A DNA stretch of 64,000 nt from Agromyces bracchium. Its GTDB lineage: Bacteria; Actinomycetota; Actinomycetes; Actinomycetales; Microbacteriaceae. The DNA is taken from positions 1 through 64,000 of the forward strand of contig NZ_WMLB01000043.1 in assembly GCF_009709675.1 (NCBI RefSeq), given 5' to 3'. The notes beneath the pieces are model-generated. The model was not told where the DNA came from. It was given only the letters and a program-made list of their open reading frames with translations, and searched no databases. Shown one piece after another: positions 23,357 to 42,309 of this stretch. The position numbers and the translations under genes were made by a program. How positions within the stretch are numbered: the first letter of the stretch is position 1; every line of letters begins with the position of its first letter.

Positions 23357-23404
23357 AGCGTAGCCGTACGGCATCGGCCTCGGACGGATGCATCGTCCTA
23401 GGAT
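23357..23404. promoter_or_regulatory. Divergent leaderless promoters of galU and the cycloligase gene
   Basis: The reverse-strand -10 TACGCT (23357-23362) is 7 nt from the galU ATG, and the forward -10 TAGGAT (23399-23404) is 7 nt from the cycloligase ATG 23412. Only about 60 bp separate the two coding starts, so both transcripts should begin at or within a base or two of the start codon. Confidence 0.6.
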
Positions 23405-23411
23405 GGCTGCC

Positions 23412-23990
23412 ATGCCCGACGATCCGACCGTGGTCAAGCGGATCCTCCGCGCCGAGCTCCGCGAGCGCCGCCGGAACATGCCCGCGCACGAACGAGAACT
23501 GGCGACCGAGGGCTTCACCTCCCGCCTGCAGGAGCTCGTGGGCTCCACCGAGGCGGCGTCGATCTCGTGCTACCTCTCGATGCCGACCGAGCCCGACACG
23601 CGCCCGTTCGTGAACTGGGCGGAGGCGAGGGGCATCCGCGTCCTCTTCCCGATCACGAGGGAGGACGGCCTGCTCGACTGGACCGTCGGCGAGGAGGAGG
23701 ACGAGGTGACCGGGCTGCACGGCATGCCGGAGGCCGTCGGCGAGCTCCTCGGCCCGATGGCGATCAACGACGTCGACCTGATCCTCGTCCCGGCTGCGGC
23801 GGTGGATGCCACGGGCATGCGTCTCGGCTGGGGGCGCGGGTATTTCGACAAGACCCTCGGTTCGATGGGAAAATGTCCTCCGGTGTACGCCATCGTCTTC
23901 GACGGCGAGTTCGTCGAGGAGGTGCCGCGAGAGGTGCACGACCAGCCGGTGAACGGCGTCGTGACCCCCACGCGGATCGTCGCGTTCTGA
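23412..23990 (+). CDS. 5-formyltetrahydrofolate cyclo-ligase
   Basis: This 192-residue folate enzyme converts 5-formyl-THF to 5,10-methenyl-THF with ATP. Family marks are KRILRAELRERRRNM at the N-terminus, LVPAAAVDATGMRLGWGRGYFDKTL (ATP and folate loop) and a C-terminal VHDQPVNGVVTPTR. ATG 23412 is preferred because TAGGAT (23399-23404) ends 7 nt upstream and overlaps the earlier in-frame ATG 23403. Confidence 0.93.
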   Translation: MPDDPTVVKRILRAELRERRRNMPAHERELATEGFTSRLQELVGSTEAASISCYLSMPTEPDTRPFVNWAEARGIRVLFPITREDGLLDWTVGEEEDEVTGLHGMPEAVGELLGPMAINDVDLILVPAAAVDATGMRLGWGRGYFDKTLGSMGKCPPVYAIVFDGEFVEEVPREVHDQPVNGVVTPTRIVAF

Positions 23991-24038
23991 CCTCGCGCCG
24001 CGTACCCGACCTCCACCGACGGACATCGAGAGATCACC

Positions 24039-24362
24039 ATGCCCACCTATTCCTACCGCTGCACCGAGTGCGGCGAGGCCTTCGACATCCAGCAGGCCTT
24101 CACCGACGACTCCCTGACCGAGTGCCCGGCCTGCTCCGGTCGGCTGCGCAAGCTCTACGGCACGGTCGGCGTGACCTTCAACGGCTCGGGCTTCTACCGC
24201 ACCGATTCGCGCGAGTCGGGCTCGAAGGGCGCGAAGGGGGGCCCCGGCTCGGAGTCGGGCACCGGCGGGTCCTCGTCCTCGTCCGAGTCGGCCTCGTCCG
24301 GGTCGTCCTCGTCCACCGCATCCTCGAGCTCGACGACGAGCTCCTCGTCGACCGCCGCGTAG
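24039..24362 (+). CDS. FmdB-family zinc ribbon protein
   Basis: This 107-residue protein begins with a zinc ribbon (MPTYSYRCTECGEAFDIQQ, then CPACSG) of the FmdB regulatory-protein family. It ends in a long Ser-rich low-complexity tail (about residues 75-107). FmdB-like proteins are widespread, and their role is unknown in most bacteria. The gene sits between the cycloligase and mscL, as I recall for actinobacteria. Confidence 0.87.
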   Translation: MPTYSYRCTECGEAFDIQQAFTDDSLTECPACSGRLRKLYGTVGVTFNGSGFYRTDSRESGSKGAKGGPGSESGTGGSSSSSESASSGSSSSTASSSSTTSSSSTAA

Positions 24363-24410: not shown

Positions 24411-24851
24411 GTGCTCAAGGGATTCAAGGAGTTCATCCTCAGGGGGAACGTCATCGACCTCGCGGTCGCGGTCGTCATCGGCGCCGCGTTCACGGCGGTC
24501 GTCAACTCGATCGTGAACAACCTGTTCAACCCGCTGATCGGTGCGCTGTTCCGCGCCGACAGCCTCGACTCCGCGTTCGTGTGGGAGATCCCCACGATGG
24601 ACGGCAGTGTCGCCGAGGTGAAGTTCGGCGCCGTGCTCGGCGCGATCCTCACCTTCCTCATCGTCGCCGCGGTCGTGTACTTCGTCTTCGTCATGCCGAT
24701 GAACGTCCTCAAGGAGCGCGCGGAGGCCCGTCGGCAGGCCGGCGAGCCGAAGGCCGAGGACCCCGAGACCGAGCTCACCGTGCTCGCCGAGATCCGCGAC
24801 CTGCTCGCCGCGGAGCGACAGGGTCAGTCCGGATCCCACCGGGCCGACTAG
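24411..24851 (+). CDS. mscL: Large-conductance mechanosensitive channel MscL
   Basis: This 146-residue channel opens under hypo-osmotic shock. It shows the conserved N-terminus (KGFKEFILRGNVIDLAVAVV), pore-lining TM1 (IGAAFTAVVNSIVNNL), a periplasmic loop, TM2 (AILTFLIVAAVVYFVFV) and a C-terminal cytoplasmic helix. The start is GTG 24411, preceded by GGAAGCGAAGGG. Confidence 0.95.
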   Translation: MLKGFKEFILRGNVIDLAVAVVIGAAFTAVVNSIVNNLFNPLIGALFRADSLDSAFVWEIPTMDGSVAEVKFGAVLGAILTFLIVAAVVYFVFVMPMNVLKERAEARRQAGEPKAEDPETELTVLAEIRDLLAAERQGQSGSHRAD

Positions 24852-24911: not shown

Positions 24912-25142
24912 TCACCAGTGCGGCGGGCGCTCGCGCGTGATCCGGTCGTCCTCGGGACGCGCCTTCGGCGCCGGCCCGCCCTCGCGCTCGTCGTGGGCGC
25001 CCGGCACGGCCGACTCCGGCGCGGGATCCGTGCCCGGCGCGGGGGTCAGACGTGCGCGACGCGCGCCGCGCGCGCGCTCGACGCGTTGACGCGGGGGCGG
25101 GCCATCCGCCTCGCCGTCGTCGTCATGGGACGGGCCCGTCAC
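24912..25142 (-). CDS. Small charged protein coupled to the helicase-like gene
   Basis: This 76-residue, Pro/Arg/Asp-rich and probably disordered protein has no recognisable domain. Its GTG start overlaps the stop of the helicase-like gene (GTGA), so it is translated by coupling. No Shine-Dalgarno independent of the upstream gene is evident. It may be a lineage-specific partner or simply a degenerate tail gene. Confidence 0.5.
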   Translation of the reverse strand: MTGPSHDDDGEADGPPPRQRVERARGARRARLTPAPGTDPAPESAVPGAHDEREGGPAPKARPEDDRITRERPPHW

Positions 25143-28100
25143 GCGGTCTCGGCCTCCTCGACCGCCGGGGTTCCCCGACCGAGCAGCGAGGCGACGCGCT
25201 CGGCGACCGCCTCGGGGTCGCCGAAGAGCTCGAAGCTGTGCACGCGCAGGTAGTGCCATCCGAGTCGGCGCAGCACGTCGGGCCGGAGCCGGAGCGACTC
25301 GCGAAGGCTCTGCCCGACGAGCGCCTGGTCGGTCTCGACGACGACCGCCCTCCCCGCGTGCGACGCCGCGAGCGAGAGCGTGTCGCGGTGGCCCACGCTC
25401 ACGCGGATGCCGCGGCGCTCGAGCCGCGTCGCGAGGTCGACCAGCATGGGGTCCCCGCGACCGCGGTCGCGGACCGCGTCCTTCTGCTCCTCGGTGTGCG
25501 AGAGCACGCTCGCGAGCGCGACGACGCCGTGGCGCTGGCGATCCTCGTCGATGTCCTCCGGGCGGAAGGCCGAGACGATGTCCATCGAGCGACGCGCGCG
25601 CGTCATGGCGACCGCGAGCAACCGCTCGCCGCCGGGCTCGCCGAGCGCGCCGAAGTTGGACAGCAGCCGGCCGTGCGGCGTGCGGCCGTAGCCGATCGAG
25701 AACACGACGCGATCGCGGCTCTGCGCCACCGCCTGCTCGAGCGTGAGCACCGTGAACGGCTCGGCGCGGTCGCGCAGGATGAAGTCGGACAGGTCGCTGC
25801 GCTTGGCGAACGCGGCGAGCACCGCCTGGTGCACGCGGGCCGCGTGCCGCGCGCTCGCAGTGATGACCATAAGCGACTCGCGCGGCCGCTTCACCGCGTG
25901 CTCCATCACGAGCTCGACGACCTTCGCGACCTCGGCGTCGAGGCTCTCGACCGTGCCGGTCACGGGATCGGGCAGCCCGTTGCCGCGAACGTAGTGCAGT
26001 CCGAGGCTGCCGTGGCCGAGGAAGCTGCCCGCCCACGGCATCGACACGATGCGCCCGCCGTAGAACCGGCGGTTGACGAGCTCGGCCAGATCCTCGCCGC
26101 CGGCGCGGTAGCTGCGCGTGAGGGTCATGGTCGGCAGCAGGTCGGCGAGGCGCGCGAGCGCCGAGTCGGCGTGCAGCGCGTCGACGCCGTGCTCGGCACG
26201 CGGACGCTCGTCGGCATCGGCCCGGATCGCGAGCTCGAACCGAGTGGGCGTCTGCGTGACCGGGTCGCCGAAGGCGACGACCTGGGTCGCGCGGCGGATC
26301 GCACCCAGGTTCTCGGCGATGGTCGTCGCGCCCGCATCCACGAGGAGCACCGTGTCGAACCGGATCGCGTCGTCGATCTCGGGCACCTCGTACGGCGACG
26401 CGAGCCAGACGGGAGCGAGCAGCCGGAACAGGTGGGGCGCCTCGCGGTGCAGCCGCTCCGGACGGACGCGGTCGCCGCGGAGCATCCGCCGCAGTCGTTC
26501 GGCCTCGTCGGGCTGGTCGACCAGCGCGACCCGCCAGGCCTCGGCGAGGCGCCACGCGAGAAGCGGCCCGGCCGCCGAGGCGTGCGCGTCGTCGACGAGC
26601 CGGAAGTCGGATTCGAGCCGGTCGAGCACGCTCGTGTTCGCCCCGAGGAGCGCGGGGTCGCCCGCGAGCACGATCTCGAACACCGACTGCCACCAGGCGA
26701 GCTCGAGCTCGGAGGCGACCTGCTGCTCGGGGACGTGACGCTTGGCCAGGTCGACGAGCAGCGGGTCGAGCCCGAGCCCGCGGAGCTTCTGGAGCAGCGC
26801 CGTCCGCTCCTGCAGGTTGAGCAGCACCTCGGACTCCGCGGCGAGGCCGACGAGGGTGGCCTCGAGGTCGCGCAGCGGGCGAGCGCCGAGCCGCTTGGGC
26901 GTTCCGGCCAGGCCGAGCGGCGCGTCGAGTTCCTGCAGGTCGGCGGCGACCGTGTGGTACGCCACGTGCACGTCGTCGAGCCCGACGGGCACGCTCGGCA
27001 CGGCGCCCGCCTCCGAGTACCGGTGCCAGAGCGTGCGCTGCTGCTGGATGCCGCGGAGCGACGCGTTCAGGTCGCCGACGTGCACCCCGGGGCGCACGTA
27101 CTCGAGCGCGAGGCGCTTGAGGCGTCGGCGGTTCGCGCCCGACATGCCGGTCTCGCGGCGCGGCGCCGTCGCCGCGATGAGTTCGCCGAGCGGACGGTCG
27201 TAGACCGACGGCAGGAACTTGTCGAGCGTGTCGCGGACGTCGTGCAGCAGTCGGAGGAAGACGCCGAGCTCGGCGACCGACTCGAACTGACGCAGGCGGG
27301 TCTGCGCGATCAGCGCGCGAGCGCGGTCCAGGAGGCGCGGCACGTCGGTCGCGCTCAGCCGCTTGGCGAGCTCGTGGGCGGCGGTCGCCTCCTCGGAGGT
27401 GGCGAAGTCGGCGCCGTACCAGGGCGAGTCGCCCGGGCCGTAGCGGAACTCGCCGAGCGTCGCGGCGCGGACGAGGTCGGCCGCGACCGCGTCGCGGCCC
27501 GCGGCGAGCGCGACGAGCGAGCCGCGGTCGAGCCGCGCGGTGGTGTCGGGCGGCTCGGGCATCGAGGCGAGTCCGGCGAGCGCGGTGAGCGCATCCAGCA
27601 CCGAGACCCCGAGTTCGCCGTCGTGGCGGGTGAGCGCGTGCCGGTAGTCGAGCAGCACACGGCGCAGGCGCACGAGCGCGTCGTCGATGTCGGCGATGCG
27701 CGGCTGCTCGGCCTTCTCGTTCCGGGTGATCGACTGGATGAGGTCGCGGCGGAGGCGATCGGTGCCAACGGCCAGCCCGCCGAGGCCGACCTGGCCGAGT
27801 CGATGCGCGATGCCGTCGAGGCTGGCGCGTCGGCCGCCCACGACGAGGACGCGCCGCTCGTTGGCCACGAGTGCCCCGATCGCGTTCACGATGGTCTGCG
27901 TTCCGCCGGTCCCCGGAAGGGTCTTCACGACGATCGAGTCGCCCTGCTCGATCCGGGCGATCACCTGCTCCTGCTCCGGGTCGGCGTCGAGCAGCAGCCG
28001 GTCGGTCGAGGGCGGCCGCTCGTCCTGCGGGACGATGCTCGGCGCCTCGGCCTGGCGGGACACGGCGGCACGGGCGTTCGGATTGCCGGCGATCGCGTCG

Positions 28101-28894
28101 ATGACGGGATGCTCGAGCCGCGAGGCATCCGCCCCCATCGCCGGCCCGACCTCGGCGAACGAGGAGACCACGAGACGTGGAGCGACGTGGAAGTACGGCA
28201 GGTGCGAGGTCAGGCCGCGCAGCCGATCGATCACGGGCTGCGGCTTGAAGACGCCGTTCGTGATCGCGAGCGCGACGAACGCGTCGGCGTCGAGGGTGAT
28301 CTGGAAGCGCTCGTGCAGTTCGCGAGCCAGTGCGGGGTTGAGGAAGGGCTGGCCCTTGAGCTTGAGTTCGAAGTCGCGGCCGTAACGGCGGATGGCGAGC
28401 GGCCGGAGCAGTACGGGCGCGAGGAAGTCCTCGCCAGCGGACTGCCACGACGCGAGGCCGATGGCGAGGTGCACCGACTCGATGCCGCGGACGGATCGGA
28501 GTTCGACGCCCTTCTGCGTGATCTCGGCCGCCGCGAGACGCGCGTTGCGCAGGGCCAGCTCGTCGCGGATGAGGCTCGAGAGGAGCGTGGACTTGCCCGT
28601 GATGAACTGCGGCAACCCGCCCGGGTGGGTCGTCGAGAGTTCGATGCGCGTTCGCGGCGCATCGTCGAAGTGAACCAGCGGGGAACGTCCGCCGAGGTCG
28701 CGGAGCTCCGCGTGCCAGCGCCGCCAGCTCGGCTCGGCGATGTTGCCCGCGACGACCGAGGGATCGCCGATCGTCACCGCGTGCGGTGTCGCGGGGTCGC
28801 GTTCGGGAACCGTCGACCCGGCACGCTCGGCGGCAGGGGTCTCGGTGCCGTCGTCGGGGAACTCGTCCCCGTCGTTCCGATCGAGCCGTTGCAC
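25139..28894 (-). CDS. SF1 helicase-like protein with degraded catalytic motifs and nuclease-like C-terminus
   Basis: This 1251-residue protein has the layout of DUF4011-type superfamily 1 helicases. An N-terminal domain is followed by RecA-like domain 1, a long helical insertion, RecA-like domain 2 (GGERLLAVAMTRARRSMDI, motif VI, Args kept) and a C-terminal domain resembling REase_MTES_1575 (GWHYLRVHSFELFGDP). The P-loop reads PGTGGT with Gly331 in place of the catalytic Lys. Walker B reads D853-A854-G855 where DE is expected. The nuclease-like region has ETD where the active members I recall have an ECDG-like motif. The reading frame is intact. GTG 28894 is chosen from a TATGGT -10 (28901-28906) 6 nt upstream. 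ATP hydrolysis is doubtful; a scaffold or DNA-binding role is inference. Confidence 0.8.
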   Translation of the reverse strand: MQRLDRNDGDEFPDDGTETPAAERAGSTVPERDPATPHAVTIGDPSVVAGNIAEPSWRRWHAELRDLGGRSPLVHFDDAPRTRIELSTTHPGGLPQFITGKSTLLSSLIRDELALRNARLAAAEITQKGVELRSVRGIESVHLAIGLASWQSAGEDFLAPVLLRPLAIRRYGRDFELKLKGQPFLNPALARELHERFQITLDADAFVALAITNGVFKPQPVIDRLRGLTSHLPYFHVAPRLVVSSFAEVGPAMGADASRLEHPVIDAIAGNPNARAAVSRQAEAPSIVPQDERPPSTDRLLLDADPEQEQVIARIEQGDSIVVKTLPGTGGTQTIVNAIGALVANERRVLVVGGRRASLDGIAHRLGQVGLGGLAVGTDRLRRDLIQSITRNEKAEQPRIADIDDALVRLRRVLLDYRHALTRHDGELGVSVLDALTALAGLASMPEPPDTTARLDRGSLVALAAGRDAVAADLVRAATLGEFRYGPGDSPWYGADFATSEEATAAHELAKRLSATDVPRLLDRARALIAQTRLRQFESVAELGVFLRLLHDVRDTLDKFLPSVYDRPLGELIAATAPRRETGMSGANRRRLKRLALEYVRPGVHVGDLNASLRGIQQQRTLWHRYSEAGAVPSVPVGLDDVHVAYHTVAADLQELDAPLGLAGTPKRLGARPLRDLEATLVGLAAESEVLLNLQERTALLQKLRGLGLDPLLVDLAKRHVPEQQVASELELAWWQSVFEIVLAGDPALLGANTSVLDRLESDFRLVDDAHASAAGPLLAWRLAEAWRVALVDQPDEAERLRRMLRGDRVRPERLHREAPHLFRLLAPVWLASPYEVPEIDDAIRFDTVLLVDAGATTIAENLGAIRRATQVVAFGDPVTQTPTRFELAIRADADERPRAEHGVDALHADSALARLADLLPTMTLTRSYRAGGEDLAELVNRRFYGGRIVSMPWAGSFLGHGSLGLHYVRGNGLPDPVTGTVESLDAEVAKVVELVMEHAVKRPRESLMVITASARHAARVHQAVLAAFAKRSDLSDFILRDRAEPFTVLTLEQAVAQSRDRVVFSIGYGRTPHGRLLSNFGALGEPGGERLLAVAMTRARRSMDIVSAFRPEDIDEDRQRHGVVALASVLSHTEEQKDAVRDRGRGDPMLVDLATRLERRGIRVSVGHRDTLSLAASHAGRAVVVETDQALVGQSLRESLRLRPDVLRRLGWHYLRVHSFELFGDPEAVAERVASLLGRGTPAVEEAETA

Positions 28895-28957
28895 ATCGAC
28901 ACCATACGGCCGAGTGCGGCGATCCTCCGGAGCATCGCCGCACTCCGCAGGATTTCG

Positions 28958-28989
28958 ATACCCGCCGGGTATTGATACCATGGGGGTAT
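28958..28989. promoter_or_regulatory. Tandem CstR/CsoR-type operators
   Basis: ATACCCGCCGGGTAT (28958-28972) is a perfect 6-3-6 palindrome. ATACCATGGGGGTAT (28975-28989) is a second copy with one arm mismatch, 17 bp further on. The ATACCC/GGGTAT arms resemble operators known for CstR and CsoR repressors. The second copy overlaps the likely -10 (TATGCT, 28987-28992) of the rhodanese operon, as expected for repression. Confidence 0.75.
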
Positions 28990-29025
28990 GCTTTCCCTGG
29001 CACACCAGCGTACGAGGAGCAGCAG

Positions 29026-29334
29026 ATGAAGTCGATCTCCCCCAACGAGGCCCACGCCGTCGCCGACGCGTGGATCCTCGACGTCCGCGAGGGTCACGAG
29101 CTCGAACAGGCCCGCCTCGAGGACGCCCACCACATCCCGCTCGGAACGCTCGTCGAACGCCTCGACGAGGTGCCCCGCGACCGCACCGTCTACGTGATGT
29201 GCCACGCCGGCGGCCGGAGCGCGCAGGCGACCGAGTACCTGACGACGCAGGGCGTCGACGCCGTGAACATCTCGGGCGGCATCACCGAGTGGTACCGCTC
29301 CGGACTCCCCCTCACCATCGGAGGTGCCGAATGA
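29026..29334 (+). CDS. Single-domain rhodanese
   Basis: This 102-residue sulfurtransferase carries sulfane sulfur on Cys59 in the active-site loop ([11 protein letters not shown]), with the CDC25-like substrate loop and ILDVREGHE upstream. It likely handles persulfide from sulfide or thiosulfate metabolism. A GAGGAG ribosome site precedes ATG 29026. Its stop overlaps the start of the CstR-like gene (ATGA), and tandem ATACCC-type palindromes lie upstream, so the operon is probably autoregulated. Confidence 0.92.
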
Positions 29335-29627
29335 CCGCGAACGTGGCGACCGAGTCGACCGCAGACGCCCAGCGCCGCATCGCCAACCGCCTGAAGCGCG
29401 CCCGCGGCCAGCTGAACGCCGTGATCGACGCCGTCGAGTCGGGCGCCGACTGCCGCACCGTCGTGAACCAGCTCGCGGCGGTGTCGAGTGCGCTCGACCG
29501 CGCGGGCTTCGCGGTCATCTCGACCGCGATGCGCGACTGCGCCGCCGACCCCGACGGCAAGGTCGACGGCTCCGGCGAGCGGCTCGACTTCGACGAGCTC
29601 GAGAAGCTGTTCCTCTCGCTCTCCTGA
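29331..29627 (+). CDS. CstR-like persulfide-sensing repressor (CsoR/RcnR family)
   Basis: This 98-residue four-helix-bundle repressor of the DUF156 family has Cys41 and Cys70, spaced 29 residues as in both CsoR (36/65) and CstR (31/60). The copper-binding His that sits four residues before the second Cys in CsoR is Ala66 here. This points to a disulfide/persulfide sensor of the CstR type rather than a copper sensor. Coupling to a rhodanese gene agrees. It should bind the two palindromes at 28958-28989 and release them on persulfidation. Confidence 0.85.
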
Positions 29628-39214: not shown

Positions 39215-40072
39215 TCAGATCCGCACGATCCAGTAGTCGCTCGTCCAGATCGGCTGGGTCCGCACGACCGTGCCCTCGTACGGCGCGTGGAGGATCATGC
39301 CGTTGCCGGCGTAGAAGCCGATGTGGCCGCTCATGACGACGAGGTCGCCGGGAACCGCCTCGGAGACGGGGATCTGCGTGCCGGCGGCACCCTGCGCGGA
39401 GGACGAGTGCGGGAGGCTGATGCCGAACTGCGCGTAGACGTACTGCACGAGGCCGGAGCAGTCGAACCCGGCCGGCGTCGCGCCGCCGTAGACGTACGGG
39501 ACGCCGAGGTACTGCTGGGCGACGGCGAACACGCTGGCCGGATCCGCCGAACCGTAGACGGCGGCCGGGGTGTACTCGCTCGCGGCCGCGGCGTAGGAGG
39601 TCATCTGCTCGGCGGCGGCCTGACGTGCGGCCTCGGCGGCGGCGGCCTCCTCGGCCGCGCGCTGCGCCTCCTCGGCCGCGCGGATCTCCTCGCCCGAGAC
39701 GGCGTCGTAGCCGTCCTCCGAGATGGGCGCCGCGATGACGTCCTCGGCGACCTCGACGTCCTGCGGGGCCGCCTTGGTCAGCTGGGTGCTCGCGGTGGCG
39801 CCGAACTGGATGCCGTCGGTGCCGGGCGCGAACGCGTAGGCGGGGATCGCGAGCGTGCCGACCAGGCCGGCCGCGACGGACATCACCATCACGTTCTTGG
39901 CGCTGCCGCGGCGGAGCCGGCGACCCAGCGAGTCCTTCTGGAGCTTCGCCTCCGCTGCGACGTCGGGCGTCGCCGCGGGCGCCGCCGGAGTCGCGCGACG
40001 CACGAGTGCGGTTCCGGTCCTGGGCTTGGGGGCGGTGGTCGCGCCGGAGCGGCGCCGGGGGAATCGAGCCAA
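39215..40072 (-). CDS. NlpC/P60 family peptidoglycan endopeptidase
   Basis: This 285-residue hydrolase has a basic N-terminus, a membrane/signal segment (VAAGLVGTLAIPAYAFAPG), an Ala/Glu coiled coil and a C-terminal NlpC/P60 domain. The catalytic Cys205 is in FDCSGLVQ, with His in SGHIGFYAG and ILHAP. It cleaves D-Glu-diaminoacid bonds in wall peptides. TTG 40072 is supported by GGAGG 7 nt before it. A promoter is placed at 40217-40245, giving a leader of about 137 nt. IdeR is encoded next upstream on the same strand. Confidence 0.9.
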   Translation of the reverse strand: MARFPRRRSGATTAPKPRTGTALVRRATPAAPAATPDVAAEAKLQKDSLGRRLRRGSAKNVMVMSVAAGLVGTLAIPAYAFAPGTDGIQFGATASTQLTKAAPQDVEVAEDVIAAPISEDGYDAVSGEEIRAAEEAQRAAEEAAAAEAARQAAAEQMTSYAAAASEYTPAAVYGSADPASVFAVAQQYLGVPYVYGGATPAGFDCSGLVQYVYAQFGISLPHSSSAQGAAGTQIPVSEAVPGDLVVMSGHIGFYAGNGMILHAPYEGTVVRTQPIWTSDYWIVRI

Positions 40073-40216
40073 AACGTGTCCTCCGCCCCACGAGGCCGAA
40101 GCTCCGTCTCACCTGTGCGCTTGGGGGCGCGTCACGGGTATCGGGGCCGAGCGGTGAGCGCGGGAGGCGTCTCGACCCTGTTCCTCCGGCTGGCTTGTCG
40201 CCGGCGGACTCGATCG
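40073..40216 (-). other. Long structured 5' leader of NlpC/P60 gene
   Basis: About 137 nt of GC-rich transcribed leader separate the predicted start from the TTG codon. Local inverted segments are visible (CCGCCGGC facing GCCAGCCGG; GGAGCTTCGGCCTC). Actinobacterial wall-hydrolase genes are often controlled by c-di-AMP (ydaO) riboswitches, but I could not match the conserved core convincingly. Confidence 0.35.
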
Positions 40217-40245
40217 AGAATACGCGAGAGGTCGTCGATTGTCAC
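40217..40245 (-). promoter_or_regulatory. Promoter of NlpC/P60 gene
   Basis: On the reverse strand a -35 GTGACA (40240-40245) is 17 bp from a -10 TATTCT (40217-40222). The AT content here is locally high. The predicted start is near 40209. Confidence 0.65.
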
Positions 40246-40348
40246 ATTTCGATCACGGAGCGCCGGATTCCGCGCCCTGCGACGGTCGCCGATGCCGGAT
40301 CCGAACGCGACGCGCGCCGGGCACCCCGCCCGCACGGGACCGTCCGGA

Positions 40349-41041
40349 TCAATCCCCGATGAAGAGGTGACCGGCCAGCTCGGACGGCAGCTCGAGCGAG
40401 TCGTCGCGACCCTCGACCGAGACCGCCACGGAGGCCCCGTCGCGACGCAGCGTCACCCGGGTGCCGGGAAGCACGCCGGCCGCCTTGAGCCGCGCCAGCA
40501 GCTCCGGCTCGAACTGCGCGGGCTCGGCGAGTCGGCGGATCACGCCCTCGGCCGAACCGCCGCCCTCGTCGAGGGCCGTGAGCACGTTGCGCACGCCCTG
40601 CATGAACGGCGCGGCGGGCGGGGCGCCCAGCTCCTCCAGCCCGGGGATCGGATTGCCGTAGGGCGAGTGCGTGGGCTGGCCGAGGATCTCGACGAGGCGA
40701 CGCTCGACGTGCTCGCTCATCACGTGCTCCCAGCGGCACGCCTCTTCATGGACGTACTCCCAGTCGAGGCCGATCACGTCGGCGAGCAGGCGCTCGGCGA
40801 GTCGGTGCTTGCGCATGACGTGCACGGCCTTCTGGCGGCCGTCGGCCGTGAGCTCGAGGTGCCGGTCGCCGGAGACCACGACGAGGCCGTCGCGCTCCAT
40901 CCGCGCGACCGTCTGCGACACGGTGGGACCGGAGTGCCCGATGCGCTCGGAGATGCGGGCGCGGAGCGGCACGATGCCCTCCTCCTCGAGGTCGAGGATG
41001 GTGCGCAGGTACATCTCGGTCGTGTCGATGAGGTCGGTCAA
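40349..41041 (-). CDS. ideR: Iron-dependent repressor IdeR/DtxR
   Basis: This 230-residue metalloregulator represses iron uptake and storage genes when bound to Fe2+. With TTG 41041 as residue 1, the known DtxR ligands fall at the same numbers: Met10, His79, Glu83, His98, Cys102, Glu105, His106. Cys102 marks the iron (not MntR-type manganese) branch. A winged helix (SGPTVSQTVARMERDG) and a C-terminal SH3-like domain are present. GGGGGAG precedes the TTG by a few bases, which settles the start. Confidence 0.95.
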   Translation of the reverse strand: MTDLIDTTEMYLRTILDLEEEGIVPLRARISERIGHSGPTVSQTVARMERDGLVVVSGDRHLELTADGRQKAVHVMRKHRLAERLLADVIGLDWEYVHEEACRWEHVMSEHVERRLVEILGQPTHSPYGNPIPGLEELGAPPAAPFMQGVRNVLTALDEGGGSAEGVIRRLAEPAQFEPELLARLKAAGVLPGTRVTLRRDGASVAVSVEGRDDSLELPSELAGHLFIGD

Positions 41042-41184
41042 TTCGCTCCCCCTCGGCCGTCGGGCGCCTCGTGCATCAGAACAGACTACTGGCCGCAGCC
41101 GACATGCCGCCGAGCCCATCGGGTGGACACGACGAACGACGGGGACGGCGTCATCCGCCGCCATGGCGAATGCGCCGCGTCTAG

Positions 41185-42309
<1,125 letters not shown>

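Follow-up and report, generated by a model that had tools for sequence, protein, structure and literature searches.

A probable catalytically dead helicase–nuclease retained as a core gene in Agromyces bracchium and its relatives

The window analysed here, positions 1-64,000 of contig NZ_WMLB01000043.1 from Agromyces bracchium, carries on its reverse strand a long gene, convergent with mscL, whose product has the architecture of a DUF4011 region, a superfamily 1B (SF1B) helicase core and a C-terminal restriction endonuclease (REase) domain (Table 1). Comparison of this protein with its relatives indicates, with high confidence, that the gene encodes a pseudoenzyme, catalytically dead and under selection. 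Genus, family, order and class below are those of this genome. The reading frame is intact, as the initial annotation had it, and translates without an internal stop; an alternative, longer frame for the same gene starts at 29005. Among Pfam models, only DUF4011 (PF13195) passes its curated cut-off, and by a narrow margin, and the AAA_11, AAA_12 and MTES_1575-type REase models all remain under theirs (for the last, PF18741, the protein reaches 25.1 and 29 bits). With this profile, the protein looks like a degenerate DUF4011-helicase-nuclease. In the three relatives with intact motifs that we examined (L073, L089 and L147), the DUF4011, AAA and REase models all score above their cut-offs, and the three dead-motor relatives examined (L065, L130 and L085) pass few or some of them, L085 passing REase, DUF4011 and AAA_11.

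Table 1. Features of the gene and of the neighbouring locus markers (window coordinates)
Feature	Coordinates	Strand	Details
Pseudo-helicase/pseudo-nuclease gene (probable), DUF4011-SF1B-REase architecture	25139..28894	-	1251 aa, GTG start, stop 25139-25141
DUF4011 (PF13195) region	28322..28699	-	24.3 bits (22.5 on protein), cut-off 22.2
Lys-less P-loop TLPGTGGTQT, residues 325-334	27893..27922	-	Gly331 codon 27902-27904
Degenerate Walker B DTVLLVDAGA, residues 847-856	26327..26356	-	Val852/Asp853 replace Asp/Glu
Motif III remnant GDPVTQTPT, residues 876-884	26243..26269	-	Alignment to relatives
Motif IV LTRSYRAGGE, residues 925-934, YR retained	26093..26122	-	Alignment to relatives
Motif VI AVAMTRARR, residues 1094-1102, arginines retained	25589..25615	-	Alignment to relatives
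REase (MTES_1575/Vsr-like) domain remnant, first acid gone, second pair retained	25187..25444	-	PF18741 25.1 bits, cut-off 38.2
mscL, convergent neighbour, locus marker in many order members	24411..24851	+	PF01741 127 bits
Zinc-ribbon protein, second locus marker, stop-to-stop frame, start codon unset	23991..24359	+	PF09723, presumably FmdB-type
5-Formyltetrahydrofolate cyclo-ligase, third locus marker	23388..23990	+	PF01812

The catalytic residues of the helicase core are lost across the family. The P-loop reads T325-L-P-G-T-G-G331-T-Q-T334, with Gly331 in the position of the lysine, which had already been reported missing. Walker B is indeed degenerate, although the register first assigned to it was one residue off: VDAGA spans residues 852-856, with Val852 at the Asp position, Asp853 at the Glu position and Ala854 at the position that follows DE rather than at that of the Glu. 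This register is set by relatives that retain DVVIFDEASQ and by profile alignment to Ighmbp2 (FDvVvlddAsq over FDVVVIDECAQ). The SF1B signature of GK[ST] in motif I with DE in motif II is thus absent from the window protein, and motif alignment answered the question, raised in the initial annotation, of whether the whole family shares the loss: neither Lys331 nor DE occurs in any of 71 aligned sequences of the family (hereafter rows), which cannot be due to chance. Motif III keeps its GD, with TQTP where active-type relatives have QLPP, and motif V, in which those relatives retain QGDE, is altered. The arginines of motif VI do persist, as had been noted (R1099 in 54/59 family rows, R1101 and R1102 in 59/59), and R930 of motif IV is kept in all 59. 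In the nuclease-like C terminus, the proposed loss of the acidic pattern holds for the first acid but not for the second pair. The former, the Asp of IDLAV at column 1174, is present in 9/9 active-type rows, is Ser1174 in the window protein and is absent from 58/59 family rows of one set and 71/71 of the other; the latter, E or D at 1187 and D1189, is found in every row of both sets. We take these acids to have the catalytic roles of their counterparts in Vsr. From these residues, we would expect the window protein neither to hydrolyse ATP nor to cleave DNA.

The gene is nevertheless nearly universal in the group that has lost these sites. At a match threshold of E 1e-10 for genus, family and order and 1e-6 for class, with tallies that may include giant relatives or fragments, it was matched in 59/60 genomes of the genus (the one miss is 77% complete), 197/199 of the family, covering 85/85 genera, and 146/149 of the order, covering 63/64 genera; some order matches are weak (for example, in family f19), and the best match in family genome G182 reaches only 6.4e-28. 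The three order genomes with no match are G307 (62% complete), G320 (92%) and G378 (95%). Only 34/148 class genomes had a match, a count that includes members of the order and giant relatives. A scan of named records returned at least 595 matched stretches, at least 585 of them encoding a relative, mostly in Microbacteriaceae genera; the best 80 were kept. All 59 main matches in the genus are free of stops, and the ratio of nonsynonymous to synonymous substitution rates (dN/dS) against the three nearest relatives is 0.041, 0.052 and 0.054. Small genomes also retain the gene, with matches in 31/33 family genomes of at most 1.8 Mb (counted by hand). In 12 small genomes inspected in detail, which were chosen among those already known to match and of which one comprises just one contig (927,303 bases), the frames span 1175-1369 residues (that of G072 matched in two stretches) and none has Lys331; the loops include PGTGGTQT, PGTGATQT, PGTGSTQT, PGAQVTQ, PGCGYTQT and others. 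Together, the low dN/dS, the near-universal matches up to the order and the retention in small genomes support, at the level of sequence comparison, the earlier suggestion of selection for a non-catalytic role. No close homologue carrying GKT together with DE was found and dN/dS is not near 1, two of the outcomes that the initial annotation had named beforehand as speaking against that role.

Within the family, the Lys-less P-loop is highly conserved. In 14 family rows that were hand-picked for spread and are free of the bias of the P-loop scan, it comes first among 1170 ten-residue stretches, with an identity of 0.96 against a protein mean of 0.59, and both REase acid stretches fall below average conservation. 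In 59 family rows the loop ranks 33 of 1191, a rank biased towards the loop, as one of the two scan patterns included it, with 11 of the 59 rows lacking the exact pattern. Four other stretches (residues 485-494, 759-768, 952-961 and 1070-1079) are hyperconserved in the family (0.91-0.96) and ordinary in active-type relatives (percentile 25-44), and are candidates for the seat of a new function. The most altered loops were seen in several reduced genomes (L275-L284; G074:C1:781723-785190), with Tyr, Ile or Val at the lysine position, so that a small residue is not required there.

The order also contains active-type relatives. Of 140 order rows scored for motif state, 132 are non-canonical, 71 of them from the family itself and 61 from 17 other families, and eight carry GK[ST]QT with DE; the latter fall in two families, f5 (2/2) and f18 (6/8). 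These counts score L158, cut at a contig end with an unreadable P-loop, as lost on Walker B alone; they exclude family f19 and leave aside L102, L104, L106, L107, the duplicate L001 and the 2-base placeholder L168, and the class rows L100, L101 and L105, giants whose P-loop aligned to gaps, lie outside the order count. In f38, a family of another order, 10/10 rows are non-canonical, with Arg in place of Lys. The two motor motifs go together: across rows hand-thinned to 87, 74 have neither Lys nor the DE pair, nine have both and none is mixed, with four outgroup giants set by hand to both, the P-loop of L178 aligned to a gap so that only its DE is visible, and L099, which has the Glu and not the Asp, scored as lost.

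How many times the motor died is a separate question, which we approached with trees from which the motif columns were excluded. A quick tree required three state changes, two of them forced by starred branches. A careful LG+C20 tree of 48 hand-thinned rows required four, at least three of them forced by starred branches (bootstrap range 3-5), and a single change sufficed in 0% of 200 bootstrap trees. Approximately unbiased (AU) tests did not formally reject one lost clade (p 0.0568), nor a merger of the big clade with L099/L129 (p 0.0556) or with family f38 (p 0.181). Recurrent loss of the motor is therefore favoured and not proven. The clearest case would be a loss inside f18, where L099 and L129 lack the motor and five other sampled genera keep the motifs, although tree support for it is modest (82/71) and the AU test narrowly fails to exclude the alternative. 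These two dead-motor genera within an otherwise active-type family form a natural before/after pair.

The neighbourhood of the gene is shared with active-type members of the order. At 77 loci longer than 8.5 kb, some of which stop at contig ends, we found mscL at 45, the zinc ribbon at 51 and the ligase at 42. In all seven active-type order loci fetched with flanks, mscL lies 127-448 bases downstream on the opposite strand (the eighth active-type order row, L073, was fetched without flanks); all of the marker genes are missing around L171, an active-type locus that belongs to a different order. Just upstream of the gene in the window, and divergent from it, are a rhodanese-domain protein and a CsoR-type metal-sensitive repressor (28786-29627, plus strand). 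An NlpC/P60 protein and a DtxR/IdeR-type iron-dependent repressor (39218-41338, minus strand) lie about 10 kb upstream; matches to them occur at 19 and 16 of the 77 loci, 1.2-7.5 kb upstream and on the strand of the gene in all but one listed relative, which suggests an insertion or rearrangement in the lineage of the window. The gene is also overlapped by an antisense open frame of 1307 residues (25052-28975, plus strand), with mirrored-frame matches in 20/77 relatives, most simply explained as a by-product of GC-rich codon use and a conserved sense protein.

Structure prediction points to an SF1B fold with two RecA domains. An AlphaFold2 model of residues 41-1240, built with 58 relatives, reached a predicted local distance difference test score (pLDDT) of 85 and a predicted template modelling score (pTM) of 0.72; in this model, motif Ia is separated from motif II by a large helical insert. 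Its top Foldseek matches in the PDB are Senataxin, Aquarius, Sen1, Upf1, Dna2 and Ighmbp2; among the best 50 of 814 matches, the first 39 are Senataxin/Sen1, the spliceosomal Aquarius, Upf1, Ighmbp2 or Dna2 (best E 5.8e-14), a set that we take to be the SF1B group. Solved structures were matched by profile searches, whereas phmmer with the protein alone as query returned none. The combination that marks a pseudohelicase is thus in place: a predicted fold that is kept, catalytic residues lost clade-wide and purifying selection. Among anti-phage profiles, the best matches are PDC-S37 (326 bits), ProA (NF058533; 307 bits) and Hhe (NF042953; 150 bits). The ProA and Hhe matches do not reach the NCBI cut-offs of 1500 and 2000, and PDC-S37 is given by PADLOC with no cut-off; against ProA and PDC-S37, the active-type relatives L073 and L089 attain 808-916 bits, likewise short of the NCBI cut-offs. 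By these profile scores, the protein is a chromosomal cousin of the DUF4011 helicase-nuclease anti-phage proteins that falls below their cut-offs. Among the papers listed by a literature search under the names ProA, Hhe and PDC-S37, none concerned the window protein.

Our results lead us to lean, if only slightly, toward a model in which a former helicase-nuclease has been fixed as a core, non-catalytic scaffold or sensor that binds nucleic acid. The ancestor would have been a DUF4011-SF1B helicase with a C-terminal Vsr-like nuclease, as in the PDC-S37/ProA/Hhe proteins, and would have settled beside mscL, passing down vertically as part of the core genome. It would then have given up hydrolysing ATP and cutting DNA but kept the two RecA folds, the DUF4011 region and the large helical insert. 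The RecA-like cleft might now grip DNA or RNA without translocation and recruit partners, and in the family the conserved Lys-less P-loop may have a structural or non-hydrolytic ligand role. The scaffold or sensor mechanism itself is drawn from analogy with the dead helicases discussed below, and we consider it finely balanced. A more specific version, which we offer tentatively and regard as possible rather than probable, is that an immune-type helicase-nuclease was domesticated once beside mscL in the chromosome of Actinomycetes, and that its motor then died several times independently although the protein kept its value, also in most genomes below 2 Mb. Its present job would never have needed ATP hydrolysis, and the Lys-less P-loop of the family would by now be a pocket, strictly conserved, for a non-hydrolytic ligand or for allosteric control.

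Several observations weigh against this model. Other families within the order have a P-loop that is no longer recognisable (for example, APAGADVAGT) or has disappeared, so that the loop cannot have a ligand role throughout; a maintained role would be limited to certain clades, and the core function must in places be independent of the loop. The change in QGDE of motif V may mean that nucleic-acid coupling has been lost as well. Among dead-motor relatives, some still pass the cut-off of the nuclease model (L085) or retain the first acid (families f6 and f7), so that the motor and nuclease activities need not have died together. No conserved partner gene was found beside the gene at the loci compared, mscL being convergent and not co-transcribed. 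Both family genomes with no match are small (G152, 1.7 Mb and 82% complete; G241, 1.4 Mb and 94% complete), so that certain reduced lineages may be able to do without the gene; in these two cases, either the gene has truly been lost from such a lineage or the sequence is missing. At larger distances dN/dS rises to 0.25, a value that is unreliable because dS is limited by codon bias. Finally, whole-length, query-normalised TM-scores of the predicted fold are low (0.13-0.31) because only the core aligns, the best local fit being Dna2 over 362 columns at a root-mean-square deviation of 4.6.

The most serious alternative is that the protein still serves anti-phage defence, as a non-catalytic sensor of foreign nucleic acid that triggers other effectors. 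Its best profile matches are indeed anti-phage proteins, and the active-type relatives match the same profiles far better. Nonetheless, the scores lie far under the NCBI cut-offs, and the gene, far from being patchy, is near-universal and sits next to housekeeping genes. Small genomes usually shed defence genes, whereas this gene is present in most of those in the family (31/33), and we consider a surviving defence role unlikely.

Less probable still, and in our view distinctly so, is residual ATP binding with slow hydrolysis through substitute residues, such as a relocated lysine (for example, K324) and Asp853 as the Walker B acid. The high conservation of the P-loop would fit such a role, as would K or R at position 324 in 56/59 family rows and Asp853 in 59/59 and 71/71. 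However, K324 also occurs in relatives with the normal lysine (L073, L074 and L089) and hence is no new substitute, position 324 is H, G or E in 8/12 reduced-genome members, and neither the Asp of Walker B, nor the Gln of motif III, nor motif V has survived. As a compensating lysine, K324 is ruled out by its co-occurrence with a normal P-loop and its absence from those eight genomes.

We see very little room for the proposal that the protein acts on an active DUF4011 paralogue, either as its regulator, which the initial annotation had also raised, or by dimerising with it. Giant frames of 2177-2191 residues, matched in 3/60 genus genomes, could supply such a partner. Searched against its own 4.16 Mb genome, however, the window protein matches only itself, DUF4011 occurs there once and no DUF4011 paralogue was found; second matches, in 4/60 genus genomes, are too rare to account for near-universal retention. 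The genome does encode another SF1-type helicase (L268; G000:C8:47045-47584) with AAA_11 and AAA_12 matches in a frame of 1565 residues, of which 719 were read; it has no DUF4011 match. As for a decaying gene, a recent frameshift or an assembly error, to which the loss of several catalytic motifs might point, the state shared by 71/71 family rows, dN/dS of about 0.05 and the 59 stop-free genus matches rule it out for practical purposes.

Our study has implications for how helicases evolve after catalysis is lost. Pseudohelicases are seldom reported: a 2022 paper calls its own only the second case proposed (PMC9539457), and in the open-access literature we found no pseudohelicase that is a gene of about 1250 residues retained in nearly a whole order. 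The motors found at this one locus, which may be active-type, dead or past recognition, offer a natural series for testing which part of a helicase-nuclease stays in use after catalysis has been lost, and suggest a route from a defence-type protein to a core cellular component.

Comparison with known systems helps to place the protein. The working analogy is with AddB and RecC, the latter of which also carries a dead nuclease fold, and both of which were absent among the best 50 of the 814 PDB fold matches; no partner gene was seen at the locus. According to PMC4824097, the inactivated SF1 helicase domains of AddB and RecC scan for and recognise Chi. The likeness, an SF1 fold without motor motifs that is used for DNA scanning and binding, is an analogy of working and not kinship. 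AddB and RecC are UvrD-like SF1 proteins, each stably bound to an active helicase-nuclease partner. A closer relationship in predicted fold, and in profile motif alignment to Ighmbp2, exists with the Upf1-like SF1B helicases Senataxin, Sen1, Upf1, Ighmbp2 and Dna2. Ighmbp2 keeps GKT and DE, as do the other four, whereas the window protein lacks both and has a helical insert between motifs Ia and II. PriA, by comparison, is an SF2 helicase. In PMC9539457, Utp25 and Deinococcus radiodurans PriA are pseudohelicases that lost helicase motifs and were retained; Utp25 kept its fold, as is predicted here, but is DEAD-box-like SF2 from an unrelated lineage, and PriA likewise belongs to another helicase family and an unrelated lineage.

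The anti-phage proteins PDC-S37, ProA and Hhe resemble the window protein in long matches over the helicase core and the REase-like end. Those systems are mobile, whereas the window protein is encoded by a core gene, has lost catalytic residues and scores below the curated NCBI cut-offs. An SF1 helicase fused to a Vsr-like REase is also found in the giant MTES_1575-type proteins of the Microbacterium testaceum type, for which a 2013 paper proposes a defence role (PMC3710099); these add HEPN, transglutaminase and winged helix-turn-helix (wHTH) domains, whereas Pfam finds in the window protein only DUF4011, AAA and REase matches, mostly under cut-offs. Finally, in Pseudomonas aeruginosa a DUF4011 gene is described, in PMC10250203, as a core flank of a defence hotspot.

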